From positions 1 through 25,371 of the IMG/VR virus record IMGVR_UViG_3300047557_000550: 25,371 nucleotides of DNA. One strand, given 5' to 3'. Under the pieces are notes generated by a model, which did no database searches, had not been told where the DNA came from, and was given only the letters and a program-made list of their open reading frames with translations. Numbering within the stretch: the stretch's first letter is position 1; every line of letters starts with the position of its first letter. Below, in pieces: positions 2,079 through 22,337 of the stretch. Source of the stretch: a virus. Both the position numbers and the translations under genes were made by a program.

Positions 2079-3266
2079 ATGTCACAACTACTCGAGTCAC
2101 GCTGGTCGGAAACTAAAGAGGCTCTCTTAGAAGGCCTACAAGGTAACAAGCGTCAAGTTATGGCAACAACTCTAGAAAATACTCGCAAGTATTTGGCAGA
2201 GTCTGCCACTGCTGGTGCTACATCCGCCGGTAACGTTGCAACCCTAAATCGTGTGATCCTTCCAGTGATCAGACGTGTAATGCCAACAGTCATTGCTAAT
2301 GAACTAGTTGGTGTACAGCCTATGACAGGCCCAGTTGGTCAGATCCATACTCTACGTGTTCGCTATGCAGACAACGTAACTGGTTCTGGTGTAACTGGTA
2401 CTAATGCAGGCGAAGAGGCACTAAGCCCATTCAAGATCGCTGAAGGCTATTCTGCTACTACCCCAGGTGGTACGATCAGTAACGTTCGTGCTGCTGCTAC
2501 TGCTGCTCTAGAAGGCGTAGCTGGTAACAGACTAAGCATTCAAATCTTGAAGCAAACTGTTGAAGCTAAATCCAGAAAGCTATCAGCTCGCTGGACATTT
2601 GAAGCTGCTCAAGATGCACAAGCCCAACAAGGCATTGACATCGAAGCAGAAATCATGGCTGCTTTAGCACAAGAAATCACAGCTGAAATCGATCAAGAAG
2701 TTCTAACTTCATTGGCCGCTCTTTCAAGCACAGTATTAACATACGACCAAGCTGCTGTATCTGGTACAGCAACATTCGTTGGTGACGAGCATGCTGCTTT
2801 AGCTGTTCAAATCAACCGTGCTGCTAACTTGATCGCTCAGCGTACACGTCGCGGTGCTGGTAACTGGGCAGTTGTTTCCCCAACCACACTAACACTTCTA
2901 CAATCTGCTACTACAAGCGCATTTGCTCGTACAACAGAAGGTACTTTCGAAGCTCCAACAAACACCAAGTTCGTTGGTACATTGAACAGTGCAATGAAAG
3001 TGTATGTTAACACATATGCAACCAACGACAATGTGTTGATCGGTTACAAAGGCTCTTCTGAGTCTGACGCAGCAGCATTCTATTGCCCATACATTCCATT
3101 GATGAGCAGTGGTGTTGTTCTTGATCCATCAACATTCGAACCAGTAGTAAGCTTCATGACCAGATATGGTTATGTTGAGCTTTCAAACACAGCATCATCT
3201 CTAGGTAATGCTGCTGACTACTTGGCAACTGTTGGTGTAACATCAGCAAATCTACGTTTTGCTTAA
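2079..3266 (+). CDS. 23: T4-like major capsid protein (gp23)
   Basis: This is the main hexameric shell protein of the head, with the HK97-type fold. Family landmarks are V79-QPMTGPVGQI, GNWAVVSP from residue 261, IGYKGSS from 321, a PYIPL block, and FMTRYG from 359. At 395 residues it is clearly shorter than T4 gp23 (521), consistent with a reduced or missing insertion domain and a short propeptide. Likely maturation cleavage is after E41 (L39-A-E41|S42), by alignment of the following TSAGNV..PVIRRVMP with the start of mature T4 gp23. A consensus site L16-L-E18|G19 also exists. AAGGAGA lies just before the ATG, overlapping the end of gene 22, and a strong terminator follows. Arginine is mostly CGN here (15 of 19), unlike the fibre genes downstream. 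Confidence 0.96.
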   Translation: MSQLLESRWSETKEALLEGLQGNKRQVMATTLENTRKYLAESATAGATSAGNVATLNRVILPVIRRVMPTVIANELVGVQPMTGPVGQIHTLRVRYADNVTGSGVTGTNAGEEALSPFKIAEGYSATTPGGTISNVRAAATAALEGVAGNRLSIQILKQTVEAKSRKLSARWTFEAAQDAQAQQGIDIEAEIMAALAQEITAEIDQEVLTSLAALSSTVLTYDQAAVSGTATFVGDEHAALAVQINRAANLIAQRTRRGAGNWAVVSPTTLTLLQSATTSAFARTTEGTFEAPTNTKFVGTLNSAMKVYVNTYATNDNVLIGYKGSSESDAAAFYCPYIPLMSSGVVLDPSTFEPVVSFMTRYGYVELSNTASSLGNAADYLATVGVTSANLRFA

Positions 3267-9116: not shown

Positions 9117-12100
9117 ATGGCAGAATTTAAGATCACGAGATTTAGATATACATGGAGAGGTAATTGGACCAGCGGTTCAACCACTTATTATAAAGACGAT
9201 GTAGTATATTACAGAGGATCTGCTTGGGTATGTGTGAGACAACATACTTCGTCGGTGTTTGATGATGCACAAACCTATACCGAACCTGGAGACACATTTG
9301 CTAGCCCTGCATGGACTAAGATGGTCGACGGCAGACAATGGTTAGGACAATGGACTAACGGAACTAGATACGATCCGGGTGTGATAGTACAAGCAGGTGG
9401 AAATTTATATCTTTGTGTAGCATCTCATGTATCGTCGACAAATTTTAATTCAGATCTAATTAGATGGGAAGTATTGGCTGTTGGTAGCAATTTTAGAAAT
9501 ACTTGGTCTACAGCTACTCGCTATAGAGTAGGAGACGTTGTTCGTTATAACGGTTACACTTATCAATGTACATTAGAACACACGTCAGGAACGTTATCTG
9601 AAGGAGTGGTAGTAGGCAACAATGATACTATCGAAGACAGCACCGCAGAAACATGGACAGTTTTAATAGAAAATTATACCTATGTAGGCAATTATCAAAC
9701 TACTACACGATACAGAAAAAACGATCTAGTAAAATATGGTGGTTCTATACTTAAATGTATCACCGAACATACTTCGTCTGGAATATCTGGGCAGATAGAT
9801 AATTCAAAATTTGTTACATATCTATCTGGTTTTGAATATGATAATGAGTGGCAATCATCTACATATTATGCTATCGGTGATGTTGTAAGATGGGGCGGCG
9901 TAGTTTATATCGCTGCAGAAAATAATAATAACAGTCAACCAGGCAATAGTGCTGCTTTTAGTTTAGGTAATCCTGCTTGGACAGTAGTAACCAAAGGTCA
10001 GAGTTTCAAAGGCGAATACGATCCTCAATCTAATAGACAATATAGACAAGGAGATGCTGTTCGACGAGGCGGTTCATTATGGGTATGTTTACAAGACCAA
10101 AACACAGATGACAGTTCATTAAGGCCATTCGATACAACCGATTGGGAACTTTTAATAGCAGCCCAAAATTTTAGAGGCTCTTGGAGAGTAGACAGCGATT
10201 ATAATTTATATGATGTTGTTTATTTTAGAGGAAATGTATATTTTGCAAATACACCTCATTATAGTTCTTTTAATGATTTTCCTGGAGATAACGGTTCCGG
10301 ATTTAACTATTGGACCACTGTATTAATAGGCGATCAAAATGCTGCTCTTACGATTTTAGGTGATTTATTAACTTATAATCTACAAAGAAATATTATACAG
10401 GACGGTAGTACATCTTTCACCATCGGAGACCAAAGCACTATAGGAACAACAACTATATCGATTGGCGAAAATGATCAATTATTAGTTGTAGAAAATAATC
10501 AAGGAGATATTGGTTATAAAACTTGGGGTAATATTGAGAGAGTATTTTTTGTAAGAATGAACGGTGTAGACGACGATACCGATCCAAACAGAGGAAAGAA
10601 TTATTTTAAACCCTGGAGAACACTTCGTTATGCTCTGGAAAAAGCCGACGATGGATTTGAAGGTTATACATCGATTAAACTTTCTACAGGAGAATATCAA
10701 GAAGTACTACCGTTGATCGTGCCTAAAAGAACGGCGGTCGTGGGGGAAGAACTTCGTTCGGTGACTATTAGAGCGAACGAACCAATACCGGCATTAGCTA
10801 ACGATGCTCAATATACTATAGAAACGTTAACTAGAATTGGTTTATTATTACCTGATATAATCCAAGGAATAACCGTAACACCTACTACAGGAAATACAGA
10901 ACCCCAAAATACAACAGAATTTGCATTCAATACAGAAACTATAGTAGTTGGTAATCTATGGTCTAGTATCATCGATACTATAAATTTTAAAGTAAATGAT
11001 CTTGGAACTCTGCCAACAGTGTCTGGATCAAATTTAATTACAGCAAATACAGGAAGATTGAAATCAATAATTGTATTAGAAAACAATAGAGAATTTATCA
11101 AAGCAGAAGCTATAGCATATATGGCTTTTGAAAATCCAACATATTCGTTTGACACCGAAAAATGTAGAAGAGATCTAGACAGATTTATCGATGCTGTTCA
11201 GTACGATTTAAGATATCCTGGAAATTATAAATCTATCATGGCCGGTAGATATTATGCTAACGCAGTTACAGGATCACAATTAGAAGATATGTTCTATGTT
11301 AGAGATACTACCGGTATAAGAAATATGACACTCAAAGGATTGTCTGGAACATTACCGTCTCTACAAGAAGGCAATGTATATAGAATTCCTACAGGTGGAG
11401 CATTTGTGTCATTAGATCCAGGTTGGGGCCCTGCGGATGAAAGAACTTGGATTACTAACAGAAGCTGCTATGTGCAAAACGTTACCACATTTGGTACCGG
11501 CGCAGTCGGTCAAAAGATCGATGGATTATTACATAATGGTGGTAATAAGTCTATCGTTTCTAACGACTTCACACAGGTTATTAGCGATGGCATCGGAGCA
11601 TGGGTTCAAAACGGTGGCCGAGCAGAATTAGTTTCGGTGTTTACCTATTACGCACATATCGGTATGTTTGCTAAAGATGGAGGTATTATCCGTGCTACTA
11701 ACGGTAATAGTTCTTACGGAGATTTCGGCGCAGTAGCAGACGGTATCGACCCAGACGAAACTGTTAGATATGGTTATGTTAATACCAGAACAGGTCAAGC
11801 TATAGTTGAATCGGCATTCGCTGGAGAAATTTTAGACTTTATTTTAGGTTTAGAATTTAGAAATTGCGGACAAAATTATACTTCGGCAGGGTATACATTT
11901 ACTAGCTCTGGAACAGGCGCGGTGGCAATACAAGAAGAATTTAGAGATAATTCTATGTTCGAATGCCAAATTTTAAGTGGCGGTAGCGGTTTTACCCAGT
12001 ACGGAAACCAAGCGCAAAGTGGCGGACTCTTTACGATTACGTTAGCCACCGCTGAAACAGCAACACCTGCAGAAGTTATTGGCATGAGAATCATAATCAT

Positions 12101-14648
12101 ATCAGGTGAAGGAACCGGTCAATATGGATATGTTCAAAACTATAATAACTTAACTAAAGTTTTAACAGTTTATAGAGAAAGTGATAATCAACCAGGATGG
12201 GATCACATACTTCCAGGAACTCCTTCAAATCCTTTGTTAACAACTGGTACAAGATATAGAATAGAACCTCGTGTATCGTTTAACGAACCTCCGTATTCTG
12301 CCGAAGAAATAACATTAAATGCGTCAAATTCCTGGGCAGCAGCAGTATACGGAGAAACCAGCCAAACATTTACAGGAGTATCGGGTCAATTAGGAACAGG
12401 TCAAACTGTAGAAGTCACTCCTGCAGCAGCTCAGTTTACAATAGTCAAAGCTGGTAGAAAATATTCTTCAATTACAGTGACCAATGGCGGCGCAGGTTAT
12501 GCAATCGGAGATACTATAATTATAGATGGTGCAAGTGTTGGCGGAATCAGCGGAGAGCACGATATCTCTATTACAGTTTTGACAGTATCTGATGATAGTA
12601 CTAATTCTATATTAACATTTGAAACTTCAGATCCTACATTAATAGCCGAAAGCGGAAAATTTATATTAACACCGTCTTCTGGACACTTCGCAAGATATTC
12701 TTCAGACGGTGATACTTGGACTTCTTTTGATCTTCCTACAGATGGAAATTGGAAATGTCTAGCTGCCGGTGACAATAAATTTGTAGCTATTGCTAACGGA
12801 TCAAATAACGCTGCCAGCAGTAATAACGGTGTCGATTGGACTCAGCGGTTTATGCCTTCTTCGAGAAATTGGAACGGAGTAATATATGGTAAACCGTCTA
12901 CAACTTCCATCGGAGCATTTGTGGCAGTGGCTGGAAATTTAAATTCGGCAGCGTATTCAACCAATGGAACAACATGGACAGCATCTACGATGCCAACTTT
13001 TGGAGATTCTACACTAAACGAGTGGGTAGACATAACTTTTGGATTTGACAAATTTGTAGCTATAGCTAATTCAGGAAATATTGCAGCCGTGGGAACTTGG
13101 AACGGAACTACATTAACTTGGCAAGGTACGATCATGGATGTAATCTCCGATTCATCAGCTAAGGATTGGGTATCTGTTGCTTACGGAAATAGAAGATTCG
13201 TAGCATTGTCCTCTACAGGTGATGTTGGATATAGTTTCGACGGAATAACGTGGTATCCGGCAACTATGCCAAAACAGGACGGGTCAACCATACATAATTG
13301 GAAACAGATTCGATACGGTCAAGGAGTGTTTTTTGCAGTAGGAGATACAGGAAGCAAACTTGTTGGAGGTGATCCGACAACAGGACCTACGACTTTTGCT
13401 GCTACATCATATGATGGCATAGTATGGACCAATAGAACGTTGGCAACTTCATTAGATTGGGGAGTTGTTGCATTTGGAAATCCGGACATAACACTAAATG
13501 ATAGTACTTTGACAAACAGCAAACCTTTCTGGATAGCTGCACCCACAACTAGCAGTGACAAGATTAATAAGATCAATGCAGGATGCAGAGCATTGGGTAG
13601 AGCCGTAGTAGAAGGTACAGGTGTTTCTTATATAAAAATTTGGGAACCGGGTACCGGTTACGTTTCGGATCCTGTCTTATCTATCACTGATCCAGGAAAA
13701 ACAGAAGATGTTGTATACAGAATGAGATTAGCCGACGGTGTGTTAGCTCAACCAACATTTATTACCAAAGGATCGTCTTACAAAACTAGTACAACCAGTG
13801 TTAGTATAATCGGAGATGGTTTCGCTGATATAACTCCTGTTGGTAGATTTATCACGGTAGACGGATTATCTGTTATGCCTGGACCCGGTGCACAATTTTA
13901 TATAGGCGGAGCCTCTACTTATTACACAGCAGTTATTGTTGGAATCGATGAAGAAACAGATGGTAATGGAACCATAAGATCTACGTTCCAAATAAGTCCG
14001 AGACCCACATTATTGAATAATATTGAACACGGTCAAGAAATTGTTATTCGAGAAAAATATAGTCAGGTTCGAATAACTGGACACGACTTCTTAGATGTAG
14101 GCACAGGAAACTTTGAAGAAACAAATTATCCGGAATTGTATGTTGATTATGAGTTCAGTACACAACCATTCCAAGAAGTTCAAAACTTAAATGGTGGTCG
14201 TGTATTCTACACGTCAACAGATCAAGACGGAAACTTTAGAGCAGGCGAGCAATTCGCGGTTGAACAAGCCACAGGTATTATTACCATTAGTGCTGATTTC
14301 TTTGATCTTGCAGGATTAACAGAATTGAGATTGGCAGGTATTAATGTTGGTTCAACGGCAGTTATTAGGGAATTCAGCAAAGATCCATTATTCTTGCAAG
14401 ATTCAAATAATGTTATACCTACTCAAAGAGCAATTAGGTCATATTTACAGTCTAGATTGAATATCGGTGGAGAAGATCTTTTAACTCCTAGTTTTATTGC
14501 AGGTACTGTTAGAGTTGGGCCAAATCTAATTAACAGCACAGCAGATCTTACCATCAACATTCCAATACTAGCAGATTTTTCAGGAAGTCAAGCAGGATTA
14601 GGTGGAAGTTTCTTAGGACAGGCTATGTTCTTTAGAAGTTTTAGATAA
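9117..14648 (+). CDS. Giant modular adhesin/fibre protein A (1843 aa)
   Basis: A likely host-recognition appendage. Order seen: (1) residues about 9-405, seven repeats of the type W..ST.Y..GDVV.Y.G..Y.C...HTSS, resembling chitin/cellulose-binding CBM5/12-like units; (2) from about 477, FFVRMNGVDDDTD ... PWRTLRYALEKA and TGEYQEVLPLIVP, the entry to a right-handed beta-helix (pectate-lyase-like); (3) a Cys-containing helical repeat with C683; (4) more beta-helix (DPGWGP at about 767 to SYGDFGAVADG near 878); (5) GGAGYAIGDTI-type beta modules; (6) residues about 1188-1458, a six-bladed propeller with S.DG.TW boxes; (7) C-terminal YTSTDQDGNFRAG and VIPTQRAIRSYL. No catalytic lyase or glycosidase residues were identified. 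ATG 9117 follows AGGATAG and a 14-nt gap. It is a shorter paralogue of the next gene. Confidence 0.9.
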   Translation: MAEFKITRFRYTWRGNWTSGSTTYYKDDVVYYRGSAWVCVRQHTSSVFDDAQTYTEPGDTFASPAWTKMVDGRQWLGQWTNGTRYDPGVIVQAGGNLYLCVASHVSSTNFNSDLIRWEVLAVGSNFRNTWSTATRYRVGDVVRYNGYTYQCTLEHTSGTLSEGVVVGNNDTIEDSTAETWTVLIENYTYVGNYQTTTRYRKNDLVKYGGSILKCITEHTSSGISGQIDNSKFVTYLSGFEYDNEWQSSTYYAIGDVVRWGGVVYIAAENNNNSQPGNSAAFSLGNPAWTVVTKGQSFKGEYDPQSNRQYRQGDAVRRGGSLWVCLQDQNTDDSSLRPFDTTDWELLIAAQNFRGSWRVDSDYNLYDVVYFRGNVYFANTPHYSSFNDFPGDNGSGFNYWTTVLIGDQNAALTILGDLLTYNLQRNIIQDGSTSFTIGDQSTIGTTTISIGENDQLLVVENNQGDIGYKTWGNIERVFFVRMNGVDDDTDPNRGKNYFKPWRTLRYALEKADDGFEGYTSIKLSTGEYQEVLPLIVPKRTAVVGEELRSVTIRANEPIPALANDAQYTIETLTRIGLLLPDIIQGITVTPTTGNTEPQNTTEFAFNTETIVVGNLWSSIIDTINFKVNDLGTLPTVSGSNLITANTGRLKSIIVLENNREFIKAEAIAYMAFENPTYSFDTEKCRRDLDRFIDAVQYDLRYPGNYKSIMAGRYYANAVTGSQLEDMFYVRDTTGIRNMTLKGLSGTLPSLQEGNVYRIPTGGAFVSLDPGWGPADERTWITNRSCYVQNVTTFGTGAVGQKIDGLLHNGGNKSIVSNDFTQVISDGIGAWVQNGGRAELVSVFTYYAHIGMFAKDGGIIRATNGNSSYGDFGAVADGIDPDETVRYGYVNTRTGQAIVESAFAGEILDFILGLEFRNCGQNYTSAGYTFTSSGTGAVAIQEEFRDNSMFECQILSGGSGFTQYGNQAQSGGLFTITLATAETATPAEVIGMRIIIISGEGTGQYGYVQNYNNLTKVLTVYRESDNQPGWDHILPGTPSNPLLTTGTRYRIEPRVSFNEPPYSAEEITLNASNSWAAAVYGETSQTFTGVSGQLGTGQTVEVTPAAAQFTIVKAGRKYSSITVTNGGAGYAIGDTIIIDGASVGGISGEHDISITVLTVSDDSTNSILTFETSDPTLIAESGKFILTPSSGHFARYSSDGDTWTSFDLPTDGNWKCLAAGDNKFVAIANGSNNAASSNNGVDWTQRFMPSSRNWNGVIYGKPSTTSIGAFVAVAGNLNSAAYSTNGTTWTASTMPTFGDSTLNEWVDITFGFDKFVAIANSGNIAAVGTWNGTTLTWQGTIMDVISDSSAKDWVSVAYGNRRFVALSSTGDVGYSFDGITWYPATMPKQDGSTIHNWKQIRYGQGVFFAVGDTGSKLVGGDPTTGPTTFAATSYDGIVWTNRTLATSLDWGVVAFGNPDITLNDSTLTNSKPFWIAAPTTSSDKINKINAGCRALGRAVVEGTGVSYIKIWEPGTGYVSDPVLSITDPGKTEDVVYRMRLADGVLAQPTFITKGSSYKTSTTSVSIIGDGFADITPVGRFITVDGLSVMPGPGAQFYIGGASTYYTAVIVGIDEETDGNGTIRSTFQISPRPTLLNNIEHGQEIVIREKYSQVRITGHDFLDVGTGNFEETNYPELYVDYEFSTQPFQEVQNLNGGRVFYTSTDQDGNFRAGEQFAVEQATGIITISADFFDLAGLTELRLAGINVGSTAVIREFSKDPLFLQDSNNVIPTQRAIRSYLQSRLNIGGEDLLTPSFIAGTVRVGPNLINSTADLTINIPILADFSGSQAGLGGSFLGQAMFFRSFR
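9141..10335 (+). repeat. Seven CBM5/12-like N-terminal repeats in protein A
   Basis: Seven units of about 50-65 residues each carry a W/Y....(T/R)Y..(G/K)D.V.(Y/R).G..(Y/W).(C/A) core. Units 1, 3 and 4 also end in HTS. The aromatic and GDVV.Y.G pattern recalls chitin-binding type 3 / CBM5-12 modules, hence a sugar-binding suggestion. The last units (5-7) lose the Cys or HTS signature. Confidence 0.75.
11067..11280 (+). repeat. Cys-containing helical repeat, uninterrupted copy (protein A)
   Basis: The pattern is L..NREFIKAEAIAYM ... EKCRRDLDRFIDAVQYDLRYPGNY, with the conserved KC.RD Cys at residue 683. Four copies occur in protein B. Here the segment between the first helix and KC.RD is only a dozen residues, giving the ancestral-looking arrangement. 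Confidence 0.75.
12678..13500 (+). repeat. Six-bladed beta-propeller repeats in protein A
   Basis: Six Asp-box-like motifs were read: YSSDGDTW, SSNNGVDW, YSTNGTTW, TWNGTTLTW, YSFDGITW and TSYDGIVW. Each is followed by a W..i.(Y/F)G...FVA(I/L/V) strand pair. The spacing of about 40-55 residues is typical of a BNR/sialidase-like propeller. No sialidase Arg triad was identified, so a binding rather than hydrolytic role is more likely. Confidence 0.75.
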
Positions 14649-14675: not shown

Positions 14676-17600
14676 ATGGCAGAATTTAAACTAGGTAGAA
14701 TTAGATTTGTATGGAAAGGTGTTTGGGCATCTTCTACAACATATTACAAAGATGATGTTGTAAGATTTGGCGGAAAAGTATATCTATGTCAAGTTGGGCA
14801 TACCGCTTCTCCAGATTTTAATACAGATTTAGATATAGTTCCAACTAAATGGAATTTAATGGGCGACGGACAACGTTGGAGAGACGAATGGTCCACTGCT
14901 ACAGTCTACGAAGAAGGCGATTTAGTCAAGTATGGCGGAACGATATATGTTTGTGTAGACGGTCACACATCTGCTGCCACTGTTACTTTAGGTCTCGAAG
15001 CTAACTCCGGCGACTGGAATACATTTGTAGAAGGGTTTGAGTGGAAAGATACATGGACAACTTCTACAAGATATAAAGTTAATGATGTGGTAAGATATGG
15101 TGGTATTAATTATATCTGTATAACAGGTCATACTTCTGCTATCACTGCTACACTGGGTCTCGAAGCTAACTCCGGCGATTGGGAAGTGTTTTCTCAAGGA
15201 CAAGAATACAAAGGTACTTGGACAACATCAACTAGATACAAAGTTAATGATATAGTCAAATGGGGTGCCGGCCTTTGGATTTGTGTAACACAACATACAT
15301 CGTCTGTTTTTCCGACAGATTCTGCAAATTGGGCTCAGTATGTAGAGGGGTTTGAATTTGAAAATATTTGGAATTCGGGAACAGCTTATCAGCCCGGAGA
15401 TGTAGTTAGATATGGCGGTAATAATTATGTTGCTAAAACATTACATACCAATTCTAATCCGTTAACAGGAACCAGTAATTGGGATTTATTCTCTGAAGGA
15501 TTGAAATATCAATCAGATTGGTCTAATGCTACCTCATACAAAATCGGAGAAGTTGTTAAATTAAACGGATATAATTATCTAGCGATTGCCGACAGTCCGA
15601 GTTTAGTCTATACTATCACAGCTTCTACAGACGCAACAGATAGATTCACAACATCAAATACCGCAGGCATGGTAGCAGGTATGACTGTGAGATTTACCGG
15701 AACTACTTTTGGTGGAGTTAACACCGGTGCTAGATATTACGTAAAACAAGTGATCAGCGGAACTGAGTTCACTGTCAGTACGACTTCGGGCGGCACAACA
15801 TTTAATGCAACAACAGCCGCTGGCTCAATGACTGCCACGATTTCGGCAGAACCACCAAATAGTTCTTATTGGTCTGCAGTATCCCACGGAATTTTCTGGA
15901 GGGGAGACTGGACCGATGACACAGAATATAATATCGGTGATGCTGTTAAATTTGGTTCAAATTCATATATTTGCGTATTAGCTCATAGATCAGAAGGCGA
16001 CGATGGATCAACAGTAGGAGTACAGGGCGGAGGCCAAGCCAATAGTAGACCTGATCTAGACGTCAACGGAACATACTGGAATGCGTTAACTATTGGTAAC
16101 GAATTATCAGTCCTAACGACTACCGGTGACATGGTTTACTACGGCGGTGCCGGACCTACAAGACTGCCAGTAGGCACAGAAGGACAAGTTTTAAGAGTAG
16201 GTTCTGCAGGTATACCCGAATGGGTAACCTGGGGCAGTGTTGATCACGTATATTATGTTGCACCAAACGGCGAAGATCGTCCTTATCCTGATTGTGGCGC
16301 AACTTTAGATAAACCTTGGAAAACTATTCGTTATGCCTGCGAACAAATTGAAAAAGGGCCAAGAAATCCGAAAGCACAACATTTATTAGAACTTAATCGT
16401 GCGTTTATTCAAAGAGAAGTAAGCGCATGGATTAGAGATCAGATCACTAACAATACAGCACCATTTACAACATCTTTTGATTATGACGAATATAAGTGTG
16501 AAAGAGATGTTGGGTTCATTGTTGATAGATTGATTTGGGATTTAGGACACGGTGGCAATTTAAAAATGCGTGCCGCGGCACAGAGTTTTGTAGGTGCGTT
16601 TGGTGAGGAAGGCGAATTTTCAGCTGTATCGGAGAATCAAACTTATACAACATTAGCTGGTGAAGCCGACGAAGGAGTAGCTGCTTACAATTATATGCTA
16701 GAAGTTGTAGAGGCAGTGTTAAACAATTCAGCTCCAACAACAGTATATCAAAATTCAGGTGATGATTCAACAGCTATAGTTACACAATATATCAATACTG
16801 ATTACACAGCAGAACCAGGCACATATAATACAGTAGAAGAATTAGTAACTATAGTAATTAATGCATTAGAAGATCAAGACAGTTCGAGAATTCCAGAGAG
16901 AATCGTTCCAAATAATACAGTTAATGTAAAAACAGGAACCTATAGAGAAACACTACCTATTATAGTACCAGCTGAAACAGTTATATTAGGTGACGAAGTT
17001 AGAAGCACTAATGCCGGTCCGGCTGGCAGCTTAATCAGCAAAGATGATGCAAAATACAGTATCGGCGCTCTAGGAAGATTAGAAACTATCGCAGGACAGA
17101 TTATTCTAGGATCCAATGTTACTGAAAGTTCAGGCAATACAGAAACTCAAAGTATAGCTTTTCCGTATGCTAACTCTGTAGAAGAAACTTCTCTAAAACA
17201 ATTAGTTAGGGTGATACAGCATCAGATCGATTTCAAGATCGGCACTACTCATATGCTAACATTAACAGATCCTACAGGATATGGATCTACTTTCTTAGTA
17301 GGTTACGACGATGCTCGCAAACTGATACAAGAAAATAAAGAATTTATCAAAGATGAAATCACTGCTTGGATAGCGGTAAACTACCCAGAAGTAAAATATT
17401 CAAAGACCAAATGTCGTAGAGATATTGGGTTTATAGTGGATTCTATCGTCTATGATTTGACCTATGACGGTGCCTGGGCAACTTTAAATGCTGCTGTGGC
17501 ATATTTTGATGGTAATTCTAGCTCAACATTGATGATAGACAGTTCTGAGATAGCTGCGACCGCTGCTGCTTATAGCAGAATGAAAACTGTGTTACAGCAG

Positions 17601-20600
17601 ATAATAGCTAATACCACAGTTACTAAATCCACAGGAAATTCAGCTACACAGTGGACAGATTCAACGAACCTATCAGGTGGAGCAGCAGCCAACACAGACG
17701 TTGGACAGTTGATGGACATCATCATCGATGTTGTACAAGGCGATTCAACAGCAGGTCAAACACCTCAGATAAATGTCACACAAATAGCGACTAATAACAC
17801 ATTTACCTCTAATAGTCACAATATGCTAGTGGGCGATGCTGTTATTTCTAGAATCACAGCTAACGGGTTAACAGCAGGTGTGAAATATTGGGTAGTAGCT
17901 ACAACATTAAATACTTTCCAATTGTCTGCTACCTACGGCGGTGCAACTCTAGCGTCTTTCACCAACGGTACAGGATTGGACATTGATTTAGAAGTTATCG
18001 ATTACCCAACAGCTTCCAACGGTATTACGTCGACTACTGCTCTGATTACAGCCGCACAGACATTGGATGCGGCACAGGAAACTATAGTAACTAATACCAC
18101 CGCGTTTATCGCATCAAATTATCCATCGTTGTCTTATAATACTACTAAATGTGAGCGAGATGTGAGATTAGTCTTAGAAGCAGTGATGTTTGACTTTATG
18201 TTCAACACAAACTTCCAGACTAGATTAGCTGCTTATTCTTACCTAAGATCTAGCGCCAGCGATGTATTTGATGGCGGTCAAAAAACAGCCACCCGTGCAG
18301 CGTTTACATATGTTAAATCTCAAGCTAAATCAAACGTAGGTGGCAATGCAACAGCGCAGAGTCGCATCGAAACTCTAATGACAACACTAGACGACATTGT
18401 CTATGGTGCTACCAACGAAGGATCCATCTGTCAAACAGATATAAGAGGTGCAGATTATGCAAGACTGCAACTTGAAAGAAATAGAAATTATATTGTTGCT
18501 GAAATAGATGCATGGATTTCTTCTACTTACAGTACAGTCGTTTCTGCAACAGATGCAGGAACAGATGTTTTAACTTGTTCCGATACCAGTTGGATGCAAA
18601 GAAATGCTGCGGTAAGATTTACAGGTACTACTTTTGGAAACATTCAAACTAATACAACTTATTATATTCAAAATGTTATTAGTTCTACACAATTTAAATT
18701 ATCAACAACAAGAAATTCTACAACAGCATTTGATATAATTTCTTCTTCTGGATCAATGACTGTGAGTTTATATTATGACAGCACCGCATGTCTAAGAGAT
18801 GTAAATTCTTACATTGATGCATTAAAATACGATCTAACATATCCAGGTAATTATCGCTCAAGACTGGCTGCAAGATATTATGCGAATGCAGTCACTGGAA
18901 GTCTTGAAGAAGATATGTATTATCTAAGAAATGGTACTGGTATTAGAAATCAAACTCTAGAAGGATTAACTGGTGACTTATTAGCACCAAACGAATACGG
19001 TACTTCTAGAGTAAGTGCAGGTGCATACTGTTCGTTAGATCCGGGTTGGGGCCCTGACGACTTCCGCACATGGATAATCCGACGTTCTCCTTATGTACAA
19101 AACGTAACAACATTTGGTTATGCTGCTATCGGTCAAAAAATAGACGGAGCTCTACACAATGGTGGTAACGACTCTATAGTTTCTAATGATTTTACTCAGG
19201 TAATCAGCGATGGTATCGGTGCATGGGTGACTAATAATGGTCGTGCAGAACTTGTTTCTGTATTCTCATACTATGCTCATATTGGTTATCTAGCAGAGAA
19301 TGGCGGACGTATACGCGGCACCAACGGTAATAATTCATATGGAGACTTTGGTTCAGTAGCAGAAGGATTTGACGCTACAGAGATACCGATTCTTTGCGAA
19401 GTTGACAATCGAGCATTTAATGCCTCAGTTGGTCGAGTAACCACAGACGGAATAAATGAAGTATTACAATTTGAATATGATAATGCAGGATTAGATTACA
19501 CCGAACTATCTTGGACTGTTGCAGGCGGCGGAAACGGGGCTGTTACAGAGCAAGATGACTTCAGAGATGGAGGAGTTTTTCAAGTAAGATTATTAGACAA
19601 TGTTGATGACAGCGCATTAGCCCCAGAATCAGATGGTAATTTTGGAGGTTCTGGATATATTTCAAATGCCAATACCGCTCAATCAGGAACTACTACTTCT
19701 ATAACACTAGCTGCGGTCGACGATGAGATCACTGGAGCTTACGTTGGTATGAAAGTTATCATAACCGCAGGTACAGGCGCAGGACAAGTAGGTATCGTTA
19801 GTTCTTACACAGCAGGCACCAAGGTAGCCAATGTAACTAAAGAAAGCACAGGAGGAGCTGGGTGGGATCATTTAGTTCCTGGAACTGCTATAGTAGCACC
19901 AGATGCTTCGTCGACTTATGTTGTCGAGCCTAGAATTTCTTTCACCGCACCAACTTACAGTTCTTCGAGTAGAACATTAGCTACTGCTCAGACATATAGT
20001 GATGCGATATTTGCTCCAGTGTCCGGAGTTTATACACCAATATCATCAACGGGCGGTACTGGTAGCGGAGCTACTTTTACCATAGTTAGAAAAGGTGTAA
20101 AATATTCTGCTGTCGATATAGTGTCTGGCGGTACTAATTATCAAAGATTAGAAACTTTGACAATCGCAGGAACATCATTAGGCGGTGCTAGCACAACAAA
20201 TGATATCACAATAACAATTACCGCAGTGAATTCATCAACTGGAGCTATACAAGCTATCGAATTTACAGGAACAGCAGCAGGGGGTAATTTTGCTGCAATA
20301 TCAAGCGGTTCTAGAAACGTTAATACTTCAATCAACGGAACAACTTGGTCGGCCAATACATTGGCATTGCCTAGCACTTCAAATTGGGTAGCACTAGCAT
20401 CCGGAGCACTAACTACTGTCGAAACTGCCGGTACATTTGTAAATGGTAGAGCATATGTAATTACATCATTGGGTAATACTGTGTTCTCTAGCATAGGTGC
20501 TGCTGCTAACTTAGTAGGAACATATTTCGTAGCAACAGGTGCCGGATCCGGTACCGGTACAGCAACCCCGATAGCCAGCCATTTAGTAGCTGTGTCTTCG

Positions 20601-22337
20601 AGCACCACTGTAAATGCTTATTCTGTAGACGGAGGTGTTACTTGGACAGCAGGAGGTGCATTGCCAGTGGCAATGTCAGGAGCAACTGTAGATGTTTCAT
20701 ACGGAAAATACAATAATAACGGTCGTTGGATAGCTATAGCTTCTAATGGTAATACTGCTTATTCGATCAACGGTGGAATTTCGTGGGTCGCTGGAGGAAG
20801 TCTAGGAGCAGGAACATGGTCTGGAATAACCTACGGCCAAGGTCGTTGGATCGCTATGGTATCTGGTGGTACTACAACCAAATACAGTACAGATGGCGGT
20901 CAGACATGGACCACAGGAGGAACATTACCTGCAAGTTCTACCTGGGTAAGTATTGCATATGGTCGAAATAAATTCATCGCAGTATCTAGCGATGGCACTG
21001 TAAGTCCTGCATATTCTGTAAATCGAGGAGTTACCTGGAGCAATACAGGAACCGCAGGTTGGTTGAATCAAACTGTAGAAAATATAAGATACGGTCAAGG
21101 CGTGTTTGTGGCTGTCAATTCGACCAGTAACAACATGGCTAGCTCTGAAGATGGAATTAACTGGACTACTAGAGCTATTACACGAGGATCAGGCACAGGT
21201 GCAGTAGTAGCCATACACGGAAATCCAAGTAGAAGCGGTATATGGGCTATTATTCCAAGTACTTCTACTACCGCAGCATCTAGCGCAGTAATAGGAGCTA
21301 CAGCTAAGGCCAGAGCTTATGTATCTGACAATAAGATTTTCGCCATAAGAGTAGAAGATCCGGGTTCAGCTTATTCTAGTGCTCCTACTATTACTATAAC
21401 TGATCCTAACAATCTGTTCGAAGCACCAACCACTGTTAGAATTGGTAATGGTGTTTGCGCTACCCCTAGTTTTGCTAATCGAGGTACAGCATTTGATTCT
21501 GCGATCGCAGAACAAGATAGCGGTAATGGTTATGCAGATAATTTCCAGAGCGGGCAGTTTATGGGTGTAAGAAGATTAACCGGCGTGCCTAGAGCAGGTG
21601 CTAACGTAGTCTTTGCTACACAACCAAATACTGTTTATAAATTAGTTAATGTACTATCTCAAAGCGGAGAATTCGACGGAGCAAGAAGTGCGTTCTTCCA
21701 AATATCTCCAGATATGACAGTGTTTAACAGTCCAACAGATGGTACTGATATTACCACTCGTATTAGATATAGTCAGGTTAGATTAACAGGCCACGATTTC
21801 TTAGATATCGGAACTGGAAACTTTGAAGAAACTAATTATCCAGGAACACCTACACAGCCAGCTATACAGGCCAATGAAACAGCTGATTTAAACGGTGGTC
21901 GTGTATTCTACACATCAACAGATCAAGACGGTAACTTCCGAGTTGGCGAATTGTTTACTATTGAACAGAGTACTGGTGTTGCAACATTGAATGCTGATGC
22001 GTTTAATATTGCTGGACTATCAGAACTTTCATTGGGTAATATTACACTAGGCGGAAATTCCGCAACAATCACTGAGTTTTCAACAGATCCATTCTTGACA
22101 GCTAATAGTGACAGTGTAGTTCCCACACAGAGAGCTATTAAAGCGTATATCGCTGCACAGATCGGTGGTGGTGGTGCTAGCTTGAACGTAAATAGTATCG
22201 TTGCTGGTTTTATAGACATATCAGGAACACAGATTACCACTACGACAGGTGGTACAATCCAAATGAAGGCTAACTTTAACTTCCAGGCCGGAGTAAGAGG
22301 TTATCCTATTGCTTGGAATTATTTCTTAAATAATTAA
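14676..22337 (+). CDS. Giant modular adhesin/fibre protein B (2553 aa)
   Basis: Paralogue of protein A, about 710 residues longer because modules were added. Order: seven CBM-like repeats (to about residue 475), the last two separated by a 79-residue insert; a beta-helix entry (HVYYVAPNGEDRP ... PWKTIRYACEQIEKG, about 522-562); Cys-helical repeat i (C608); TGTYRETLPIIVP (about 750); Cys-helical repeats ii-iv (C913, C1159, C1372), the fourth split by a 77-residue insert; beta-helix DPGWGPDD ... SYGDFGSVAEG; GG..Y-type beta modules; a six-bladed propeller (about 1872-2195) with a 58-residue insert in one blade; and the C-terminal YTSTDQDGNFRVG and VVPTQRAIKAYI modules. CGGAG precedes the ATG. 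It presumably forms a long host-binding appendage; no enzyme active site is evident. Confidence 0.9.
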   Translation: MAEFKLGRIRFVWKGVWASSTTYYKDDVVRFGGKVYLCQVGHTASPDFNTDLDIVPTKWNLMGDGQRWRDEWSTATVYEEGDLVKYGGTIYVCVDGHTSAATVTLGLEANSGDWNTFVEGFEWKDTWTTSTRYKVNDVVRYGGINYICITGHTSAITATLGLEANSGDWEVFSQGQEYKGTWTTSTRYKVNDIVKWGAGLWICVTQHTSSVFPTDSANWAQYVEGFEFENIWNSGTAYQPGDVVRYGGNNYVAKTLHTNSNPLTGTSNWDLFSEGLKYQSDWSNATSYKIGEVVKLNGYNYLAIADSPSLVYTITASTDATDRFTTSNTAGMVAGMTVRFTGTTFGGVNTGARYYVKQVISGTEFTVSTTSGGTTFNATTAAGSMTATISAEPPNSSYWSAVSHGIFWRGDWTDDTEYNIGDAVKFGSNSYICVLAHRSEGDDGSTVGVQGGGQANSRPDLDVNGTYWNALTIGNELSVLTTTGDMVYYGGAGPTRLPVGTEGQVLRVGSAGIPEWVTWGSVDHVYYVAPNGEDRPYPDCGATLDKPWKTIRYACEQIEKGPRNPKAQHLLELNRAFIQREVSAWIRDQITNNTAPFTTSFDYDEYKCERDVGFIVDRLIWDLGHGGNLKMRAAAQSFVGAFGEEGEFSAVSENQTYTTLAGEADEGVAAYNYMLEVVEAVLNNSAPTTVYQNSGDDSTAIVTQYINTDYTAEPGTYNTVEELVTIVINALEDQDSSRIPERIVPNNTVNVKTGTYRETLPIIVPAETVILGDEVRSTNAGPAGSLISKDDAKYSIGALGRLETIAGQIILGSNVTESSGNTETQSIAFPYANSVEETSLKQLVRVIQHQIDFKIGTTHMLTLTDPTGYGSTFLVGYDDARKLIQENKEFIKDEITAWIAVNYPEVKYSKTKCRRDIGFIVDSIVYDLTYDGAWATLNAAVAYFDGNSSSTLMIDSSEIAATAAAYSRMKTVLQQIIANTTVTKSTGNSATQWTDSTNLSGGAAANTDVGQLMDIIIDVVQGDSTAGQTPQINVTQIATNNTFTSNSHNMLVGDAVISRITANGLTAGVKYWVVATTLNTFQLSATYGGATLASFTNGTGLDIDLEVIDYPTASNGITSTTALITAAQTLDAAQETIVTNTTAFIASNYPSLSYNTTKCERDVRLVLEAVMFDFMFNTNFQTRLAAYSYLRSSASDVFDGGQKTATRAAFTYVKSQAKSNVGGNATAQSRIETLMTTLDDIVYGATNEGSICQTDIRGADYARLQLERNRNYIVAEIDAWISSTYSTVVSATDAGTDVLTCSDTSWMQRNAAVRFTGTTFGNIQTNTTYYIQNVISSTQFKLSTTRNSTTAFDIISSSGSMTVSLYYDSTACLRDVNSYIDALKYDLTYPGNYRSRLAARYYANAVTGSLEEDMYYLRNGTGIRNQTLEGLTGDLLAPNEYGTSRVSAGAYCSLDPGWGPDDFRTWIIRRSPYVQNVTTFGYAAIGQKIDGALHNGGNDSIVSNDFTQVISDGIGAWVTNNGRAELVSVFSYYAHIGYLAENGGRIRGTNGNNSYGDFGSVAEGFDATEIPILCEVDNRAFNASVGRVTTDGINEVLQFEYDNAGLDYTELSWTVAGGGNGAVTEQDDFRDGGVFQVRLLDNVDDSALAPESDGNFGGSGYISNANTAQSGTTTSITLAAVDDEITGAYVGMKVIITAGTGAGQVGIVSSYTAGTKVANVTKESTGGAGWDHLVPGTAIVAPDASSTYVVEPRISFTAPTYSSSSRTLATAQTYSDAIFAPVSGVYTPISSTGGTGSGATFTIVRKGVKYSAVDIVSGGTNYQRLETLTIAGTSLGGASTTNDITITITAVNSSTGAIQAIEFTGTAAGGNFAAISSGSRNVNTSINGTTWSANTLALPSTSNWVALASGALTTVETAGTFVNGRAYVITSLGNTVFSSIGAAANLVGTYFVATGAGSGTGTATPIASHLVAVSSSTTVNAYSVDGGVTWTAGGALPVAMSGATVDVSYGKYNNNGRWIAIASNGNTAYSINGGISWVAGGSLGAGTWSGITYGQGRWIAMVSGGTTTKYSTDGGQTWTTGGTLPASSTWVSIAYGRNKFIAVSSDGTVSPAYSVNRGVTWSNTGTAGWLNQTVENIRYGQGVFVAVNSTSNNMASSEDGINWTTRAITRGSGTGAVVAIHGNPSRSGIWAIIPSTSTTAASSAVIGATAKARAYVSDNKIFAIRVEDPGSAYSSAPTITITDPNNLFEAPTTVRIGNGVCATPSFANRGTAFDSAIAEQDSGNGYADNFQSGQFMGVRRLTGVPRAGANVVFATQPNTVYKLVNVLSQSGEFDGARSAFFQISPDMTVFNSPTDGTDITTRIRYSQVRLTGHDFLDIGTGNFEETNYPGTPTQPAIQANETADLNGGRVFYTSTDQDGNFRVGELFTIEQSTGVATLNADAFNIAGLSELSLGNITLGGNSATITEFSTDPFLTANSDSVVPTQRAIKAYIAAQIGGGGASLNVNSIVAGFIDISGTQITTTTGGTIQMKANFNFQAGVRGYPIAWNYFLNN
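14991..15178 (+). repeat. Recent 165-bp unit duplication in protein B
   Basis: A 23-base exact match occurs at 14991-15013 and 15156-15178, exactly 165 bp (55 codons) apart, encoding the same TLGLEANSGDW ending in both units. The neighbouring pair TWTTSTRYKVND at 15051 and 15216 has the same 165-bp offset. This indicates a recent duplication or conversion within the CBM-like array. Confidence 0.85.
15609..15845 (+). repeat. VRFTGTTFG module, copy 1 (79 codons), inside a CBM-like repeat
   Basis: This beta-rich segment reads T.STDATDRFTTS, VRFTGTTFG, YYVKQVIS, FTVSTTSGG, GSMTATIS in order. It separates the sixth unit's strand LNGYNYLAIAD from its normal ending (SSYWSAV). A clear second full copy is at 18540-18770. 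Confidence 0.8.
16381..16600 (+). repeat. Cys-helical repeat i of protein B
   Basis: NRAFIQREVSAWI ... YKCERDVGFIVDRLIWDL, with Cys608. Same family as the repeat at 11067-11280. It lies between RYACEQIEKG and TGTYRETLPI, segments that are adjacent in protein A, so it is an addition in B. Confidence 0.75.
17314..17510 (+). repeat. Cys-helical repeat ii of protein B
   Basis: NKEFIKDEITAWI ... TKCRRDIGFIVDSIVYDLTY, with Cys913. The upstream context (GNTETQSIAF ... DFKIG) matches that of the single copy in protein A. Confidence 0.75.
17770..18000 (+). repeat. Diverged copy of the VRFTGTTFG-type module (protein B)
   Basis: The order of elements is the same but diverged: TNNTFTSNSHNM, VGDAVISRITANGL, GVKYWVVATTLNTFQLSATYGG, TGLDIDLEV. 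It sits between Cys-helical repeats ii and iii. Homology is weaker than between the other two copies; boundaries are approximate. Confidence 0.5.
18070..18250 (+). repeat. Cys-helical repeat iii of protein B
   Basis: ETIVTNTTAFIASNYP ... TKCERDVRLVLEAVMFDFMF, with Cys1159. The first helix is shortened relative to the other copies. Confidence 0.7.
18469..18900 (+). repeat. Cys-helical repeat iv of protein B, split by an insert
   Basis: ERNRNYIVAEIDAWISSTYS precedes the insert, and YDSTACLRDVNSYIDALKYDL, with Cys1372, follows it. The following YPGNYRSRLAARYYANAVTG aligns directly to protein A (YPGNYKSIMAGRYYANAVTG), where no insert is present. Confidence 0.8.
18540..18770 (+). repeat. VRFTGTTFG module, copy 3 (77 codons), inside Cys-helical repeat iv
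   Basis: ATDAGTDVLTCSDTS, VRFTGTTFG, YYIQNVIS, FKLSTTRNS, SGSMTVS in order. It shares an identical VRFTGTTFG core with copy 1, with closely similar DNA around it, yet is inserted in an unrelated domain. Confidence 0.8.
20289..21262 (+). repeat. Six-bladed beta-propeller repeats in protein B
   Basis: Six boxes: TSINGTTW, YSVDGGVTW, YSINGGISW, YSTDGGQTW, YSVNRGVTW and SSEDGINW, with W..(I/L)..G...(F/W)(I/V)A(V/I/M) strand pairs between them. It corresponds to the propeller of protein A, with an insertion after the first blade's NWVALASG strand. Confidence 0.75.
20406..20579 (+). other. 58-codon module inserted in a propeller blade of protein B
   Basis: The inserted segment reads TAGTFVNGRAYVITSLGNTVF, in outline, then SSIGAAANLVGTYFVATGAGSGTGTA. 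The type Y.I..LG.T.F..IGA..N.VGT.F.ATG.G.GTGTA is, from memory, common in environmental phage structural proteins. It lies exactly between NWVALASG and LVAVSSST, which are contiguous in other blades. Confidence 0.75.

Follow-up and report, generated by a model that had tools for sequence, protein, structure and literature searches.

The locus studied here raises the question of whether one protein domain has been inserted inside another while the vacant site is still preserved in the gene next door, and, if so, how the inserted domain arrived there. Two giant tail-fibre-like proteins, A and B, are encoded by adjoining genes, and the fourth of the helix-loop-helix repeats considered in B (repeats i-iv) is interrupted by a β-strand module at a position where A is uninterrupted. 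Judged from sequence comparison and structure prediction, repeat iv of B provides a clear natural case of a domain inserted within another. Our overall explanation, to which we assign a probability of about 0.78, is that a self-folding barrel of ~78 residues would have been inserted in frame, would have spread among tolerant fibre loops by recombination and would form an exposed knob.

The window, i.e. the whole stretch of DNA that was analysed, is a complete IMG/VR record of 25,371 bases and carries a T4-like structural cluster in which a head maturation protease and a major head protein are accompanied by the giant proteins A and B and by one more fibre or baseplate protein. As the major head protein (2079-3266) has 71% identity to its counterpart in Vibrio phage 2.275.O (genome 349 kb) and 70% identity to that of Sinorhizobium phage Phosso (genome 469 kb), the phage behind the window is probably a jumbo T4-like myovirus. 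Whereas the head protein is ~70% identical to its counterparts in jumbo T4-like phages, close relatives of the fibre genes are lacking among isolates. No match was obtained in the isolated-phage collection for the DNA of B, for the repeat iv region or for a consensus-like module, and the C-side flank gave distant matches only (<60% identity, mainly to Synechococcus, Prochlorococcus and Pelagibacter phages), which begin downstream of the site and were left out of the empty-state evidence. The predicted proteins A and B are shown to be paralogous tail-fibre proteins, both matching tail-fibre family phrog_9851 in profile searches and both starting with CBM5/12 repeats; their coordinates and those of the other features are given in Table 1. 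Separately, residues ~2040-2250 of B (nt ~20800-21400) and the matching part of A contain YS.DGG.TWT-type repeats, which match BNR/Asp-box weakly (Pfam E 0.009).

Table 1. Features of the window around the interrupted repeat of protein B and its counterparts.
Feature	Position	Strand	Remarks
Protein A, 1843 aa, tail-fibre-like paralogue, site uninterrupted (empty)	9117..14648	+	phrog_9851 E 2e-139; CBM5/12 repeats
Empty site in A: 12-residue loop AFENPTYSFDTE, helix 1 to KCRRD	11124..11159	+	
Protein B, 2553 aa, tail-fibre-like, module carrier	14676..22337	+	phrog_9851 E 6e-176; CBM5/12 repeats E 2e-39
Second module copy, within CBM5/12 repeat of B	15615..15848	+	module HMM; empty in L037, L039, L042, L076, L118
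Repeat i loop of B, empty in window	16434..16493	+	linker-type copy here in L198 and L189
Repeat ii loop of B, uninterrupted	17373..17408	+	
Third, diverged module copy, linker before helix 1 of repeat iii of B	17769..18008 (approximate)	+	module HMM; linker clade 99/99
Repeat iii loop of B, uninterrupted in window	18111..18146	+	different ~116-residue insert in other relatives
Helix 1 of repeat iv (ARLQLERNRNYIVAEIDAWISST), N-side flank	18459..18527	+	
Inserted module, six-stranded β-barrel (predicted, pLDDT 92), 78 codons, B residues 1288-1365	18537..18770	+	
C-side flank of repeat iv (YYDSTACLRD...YPGNYRSRLAARYYANAVTGS), helix 2 onwards	18771..18902	+	39% identity to A

In an earlier note on this DNA it was held that in A and in repeats i-iii of B the first helix is followed by KC.RD within ~10-20 residues, and our measurements bore this out, with distances from the end of helix 1 to the motif of 12 residues in A and of 20, 12 and 12 residues in repeats i, ii and iii, respectively; in repeat iv of B the motif reads ACLRD and not KC.RD. 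The 77-codon module placed there at 18540-18770 was correct in position to within one codon, although the true extent is 78 codons. Likewise, both flanks had been said to align with A, and on the C-side residues 678-1841 of A aligned with 1367-2553 of B at 39% identity and 670 bits, with the YPGNY..RYYANAVTG stretch included. The N-side flank is short (~20-33 residues, one helix) and weak in simple tests (BLAST E 0.29, HMM E 0.05), and it was examined in a joined-flank test with an HMM built solely from 25 empty-state sequences. Joining the two flanks of the window raised the score by 20.9 bits, compared with at most 4.4 bits for 40 shuffled N-flanks, and the mean gain across 81 filled sequences was 21.7 bits, with a few of them gaining little. 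When all 2,498 positions of B were tried as the N-flank, the best 60 all lay in the helix-1 segments of the four repeats (i-iv). Because of the joined-flank gain and this full position scan we accept the N-flank homology, so that the homology of both flanks to A, N-side included, is confirmed at the level of sequence with chance rejected, and the finding on which the earlier claim was to have fallen, flanks unrelated to A, was not obtained. Since the N-flank tests place the helix-1 segments of repeats i-iv on the N-side, the module splits the helix-loop-helix repeat of B at the helix 1-helix 2 loop.

Two features that mark a domain insertion were therefore found at this site. A relative without the insert has a continuous stretch to which both flanks are homologous, and the module itself recurs elsewhere (CBM loop, linker, helical loops, C-terminal sites and tandem arrays) and is predicted to adopt a confident fold when modelled alone. 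Using AlphaFold2 with 64 diverse copies, six strands were predicted with a mean pLDDT of 92.4 and a pTM of 0.82. In a model of the module in context, a helix (40-53), the strands (56-135) and a second helix (139-158) followed one another with no disordered linker, at block pLDDT values of 84-94 and an overall pTM of only 0.60. The window copy matched no curated family in Pfam, PHROGs or NCBIfam, and across 64 module copies Pfam gave no family, neither E1 FCCH nor Ig-like. Among predicted viral structures the module fold is common (TM ~0.7-0.85) in fibres, spikes and baseplate proteins, and the module is, on these models, a widespread unnamed virion barrel without a Pfam family.

The module HMM also detected two additional copies in B, which are absent from the earlier note (Table 1). 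A tree of 104 module copies grouped them by site, with support of 99/99 for the linker clade and 95/82 for the CBM clade, and the site labels on this tree changed 8 times, compared with 52 times for shuffled labels. As the copies cluster mainly by site, most insertions in this lineage are old and have been passed on at their site, with frequent movement in few cases only.

Filled and empty states in related phages, a comparison proposed in the earlier note, were present at the repeat iv site as well as at other sites. With a joined-flank search we found an empty homologue for 437 of the 564 filled sites, and the filled/empty sites formed five large clusters, corresponding to the CBM loop, the helical-repeat loop, the linker and two C-terminal β sites; beyond these, isolated cases in other virion proteins form a tail that consists partly of tandem-array artefacts, and several small clusters were not counted. 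At repeat iv, the ~80 close orthologues of B were all filled, and the counterpart site in the A clade was empty in 21 of 22 rows. The remaining row, the A protein of L099 (one contig), carries the module exactly at the site that is empty in A of the window, with A-like sequence on either side. When a tree was built from the downstream flank, L099 was nested within the A clade as the one filled row beside 21 empty ones, and the supported branches force at least three state changes overall. Because the L099 copy is closest to the copies at repeat iv of B (46%), the simplest reading would be that the module was copied from B into the homologous loop of A.

Similar changes of state were observed at the other sites. 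The CBM site is empty in five B orthologues, with L039 reading TADNTNQEPPNVTYW where filled relatives run through the module to SAEPPN.SYW, and at least two state changes fall on supported branches. The repeat i loop is filled in L198 and L189, which come from different metagenomes, with the module lying between PFS and FDYDEYKCERD; the flanks in L198 are identical to those of an empty orthologue at 37 of 45 and 43 of 45 positions, and both copies are of the linker type, with up to 60% to linker copies. A distant B homologue, L134, has six copies, including those at repeats i and iv and at two C-terminal sites that are empty in the window. As the copy in its repeat iv most resembles copies at a C-terminal site (48%), and not to the copies at repeat iv of B, this suggests that the same loop was filled independently in L134. 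The homologous loop of repeat iii holds a different insert of ~116 residues in about a dozen relatives (L004, L007, L029 and ~nine others), which has an HTYVSGG motif and of which the short tail alone resembles the module. These comparisons show repeated gain or loss of the module family at the same small set of tolerant loops in the predicted fibre proteins.

The central claim of the earlier note, an in-frame insertion of one domain in another, with a paralogue that retains the empty site, is thus upheld by the flank homology and by the filled and empty relatives. At repeat iv itself the pair in the window is compatible with gain in B and with loss in A, because the close B orthologues are all filled and the A-clade rows are empty in all but one case. 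Insertion is favoured, because the L099 and L198 cases are nested and the same module occurs inside unrelated host domains. The alternative, which we consider unlikely, is that the ancestor common to A and B already had the module in the loop and that A later lost it cleanly, which would make the empty site a deletion product. The filling of every close B orthologue, and of the A orthologue L099 at the same site, would fit with such a history, which the window pair alone does not distinguish from gain. However, leaving L099 filled would then need around three separate losses in the A clade, each clean and in frame, and the L099 copy lies among the repeat iv copies of B and not outside them, with modest support (90/81). 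Furthermore, the more distant homologues L137, L139, L140 and L141 are empty, and B's own repeats i-iii are either empty or have other contents.

In the preferred explanation, insertion followed by spread among loops, a barrel of ~78 residues, predicted to be self-folding and six-stranded, entered the helix 1-helix 2 loop of repeat iv of B in frame, as the sequences show, and illegitimate or ectopic recombination between fibre genes would copy it from site to site without a mobile element. Survival would be limited to in-frame, loop-hitting events, which amounts to selection for frame and for tolerant loops. The boundaries of the module shift by a few residues and lie at the first and last barrel strands. 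Since the closest filled/empty pairs have only ~80% DNA identity, at which breakpoints are unreadable to the base, we infer recombination as the likely route by which the module is copied. Likewise, since the barrel adjoins CBM5/12 repeats and occurs in virion proteins, its most likely role is that of an exposed knob for surface contact or spacing; on the fibre this extra knob would alter host-surface contact or spacing and leave the carrier repeat undisturbed.

It is decidedly unlikely that the helix 1-helix 2 loop is instead a standing docking site, reloaded with interchangeable domains (the barrel and the ~116-residue repeat iii insert) by biased recombination, which would make the observed changes plug-in diversification and not occasional accidents. 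The earlier note had also suggested looking for target-site duplications at the boundaries, and these were absent: over 347 sites the longest word common to both boundaries averaged 5.32 bases, compared with 5.31 ± 0.06 for mismatched partners. A mobile genetic element with target-site duplication was rejected, there being no excess of direct repeats at the boundaries of these sites. More broadly, we regard as very improbable that a dedicated mobile or diversification system spreads the module and targets these loops. The re-use of one loop type (repeats i and iv, with a different insert in repeat iii) speaks for such a system, but this is accounted for by selection for permissive loops, and, in addition to the lack of both a target-site duplication and a common junction word, the module codes for nothing beyond its own fold and its copies mostly follow site by descent. 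Finally, the proposal that the N-side flanks are not homologous to A, and that two unrelated domains merely adjoin a common C-terminal part, agrees with the weak pairwise tests of the N-flank alone but is close to excluded by the joined-flank gain and full position scan, by the A-like sequence on both sides of the module in L099, and by the L198 flanks, which are nearly identical to the empty state at a sister repeat.

We also compared the module with known systems. The nearest solved relative by profile was the P22 coat I-domain (2m5s, E 0.0023), a weak match over module positions 12-58 only; residues 258-309 of P22 coat gave a profile match of E 0.013, and P22 coat was in the Foldseek list at E ~0.7-1. 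The P22 I-domain is an autonomously folding insertion domain with a six-strand β-barrel fold (PMC11243222). Like the module, whose barrel is predicted, the I-domain of P22 and CUS-3 is a six-stranded β-barrel that interrupts a different fold in a phage structural protein; unlike the module, it has an HK97-fold coat protein as host, occupies one site and is larger (~120 residues). We treat kinship with the P22 I-domain as a lead and not as a classification.

The upper Foldseek matches, all weak, were E1 FCCH domains, endosialidases, UPF1-like helicases and P22 coat protein. The FCCH domain of ubiquitin-activating enzyme E1 is a small β-barrel which is itself inserted in a larger domain, and it heads the Foldseek lists, including as the isolated domain 2v31, where the module matches had E 0.007-0.5 and TM 0.5-0.6 (E1 FCCH gave E 0.25 with the module, and 2v31 gave 0.026 when searched with the context model). 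Phage domains of this kind may carry the label E1 FCCH, which served as a lead only, and a literature search on this label for such phage domains found nothing. E1 FCCH was rejected as the identity of the module, as the structure search points there weakly, with no Pfam match and no strong structural match. The endosialidases of phi92 and K1F are also phage tail proteins, with β-domains that match the module weakly (profile 4hiz 192-257, E 0.04; Foldseek), but B differs from them in that it shows no endosialidase-type enzyme domain.

Tail fibres are among the most mosaic of phage proteins and their domain mosaicism is established (Fraser et al. 2006, as cited in Smug et al. 2023, PMC10684548), and promiscuous small β-domains, Ig-like and others, are common to otherwise different virion proteins (Smug et al. 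2023, PMC10684548). Fibre mosaicism being already known, the module in B is a well-documented variant of it. Unlike the phage Ig-like domains, the module matched no Ig-like Pfam family in any of 64 copies, and, compared with promiscuous virion domains, in B it lies inside other domains and has exact empty counterparts in the adjoining paralogue, in orthologues and in sister repeats. To known fibre mosaicism these comparisons add insertion inside domains with exact empty counterparts, likely donor sites and the re-use of one loop. Domain insertion is mostly inferred over deep divergence, whereas here a loop is found both filled and empty within one genome, among orthologues and among sister repeats of one protein, and a likely donor site is identifiable in a few cases. 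These are natural matched pairs for testing how phage fibres tolerate and use an inserted domain, and which loops are permissive.

Five environmental ORFs, L305 (24 copies), L308 (17), L314 (15), L313 (14) and L312 (13), are near-continuous tandem arrays of the module, with a spacing of mostly 60-130 residues. Lastly, the very long relative L104/L105, a single ORF of 4474 aa, contains many helical repeats, and in it two module copies break the same helix 1-helix 2 loop and one lies in a linker.
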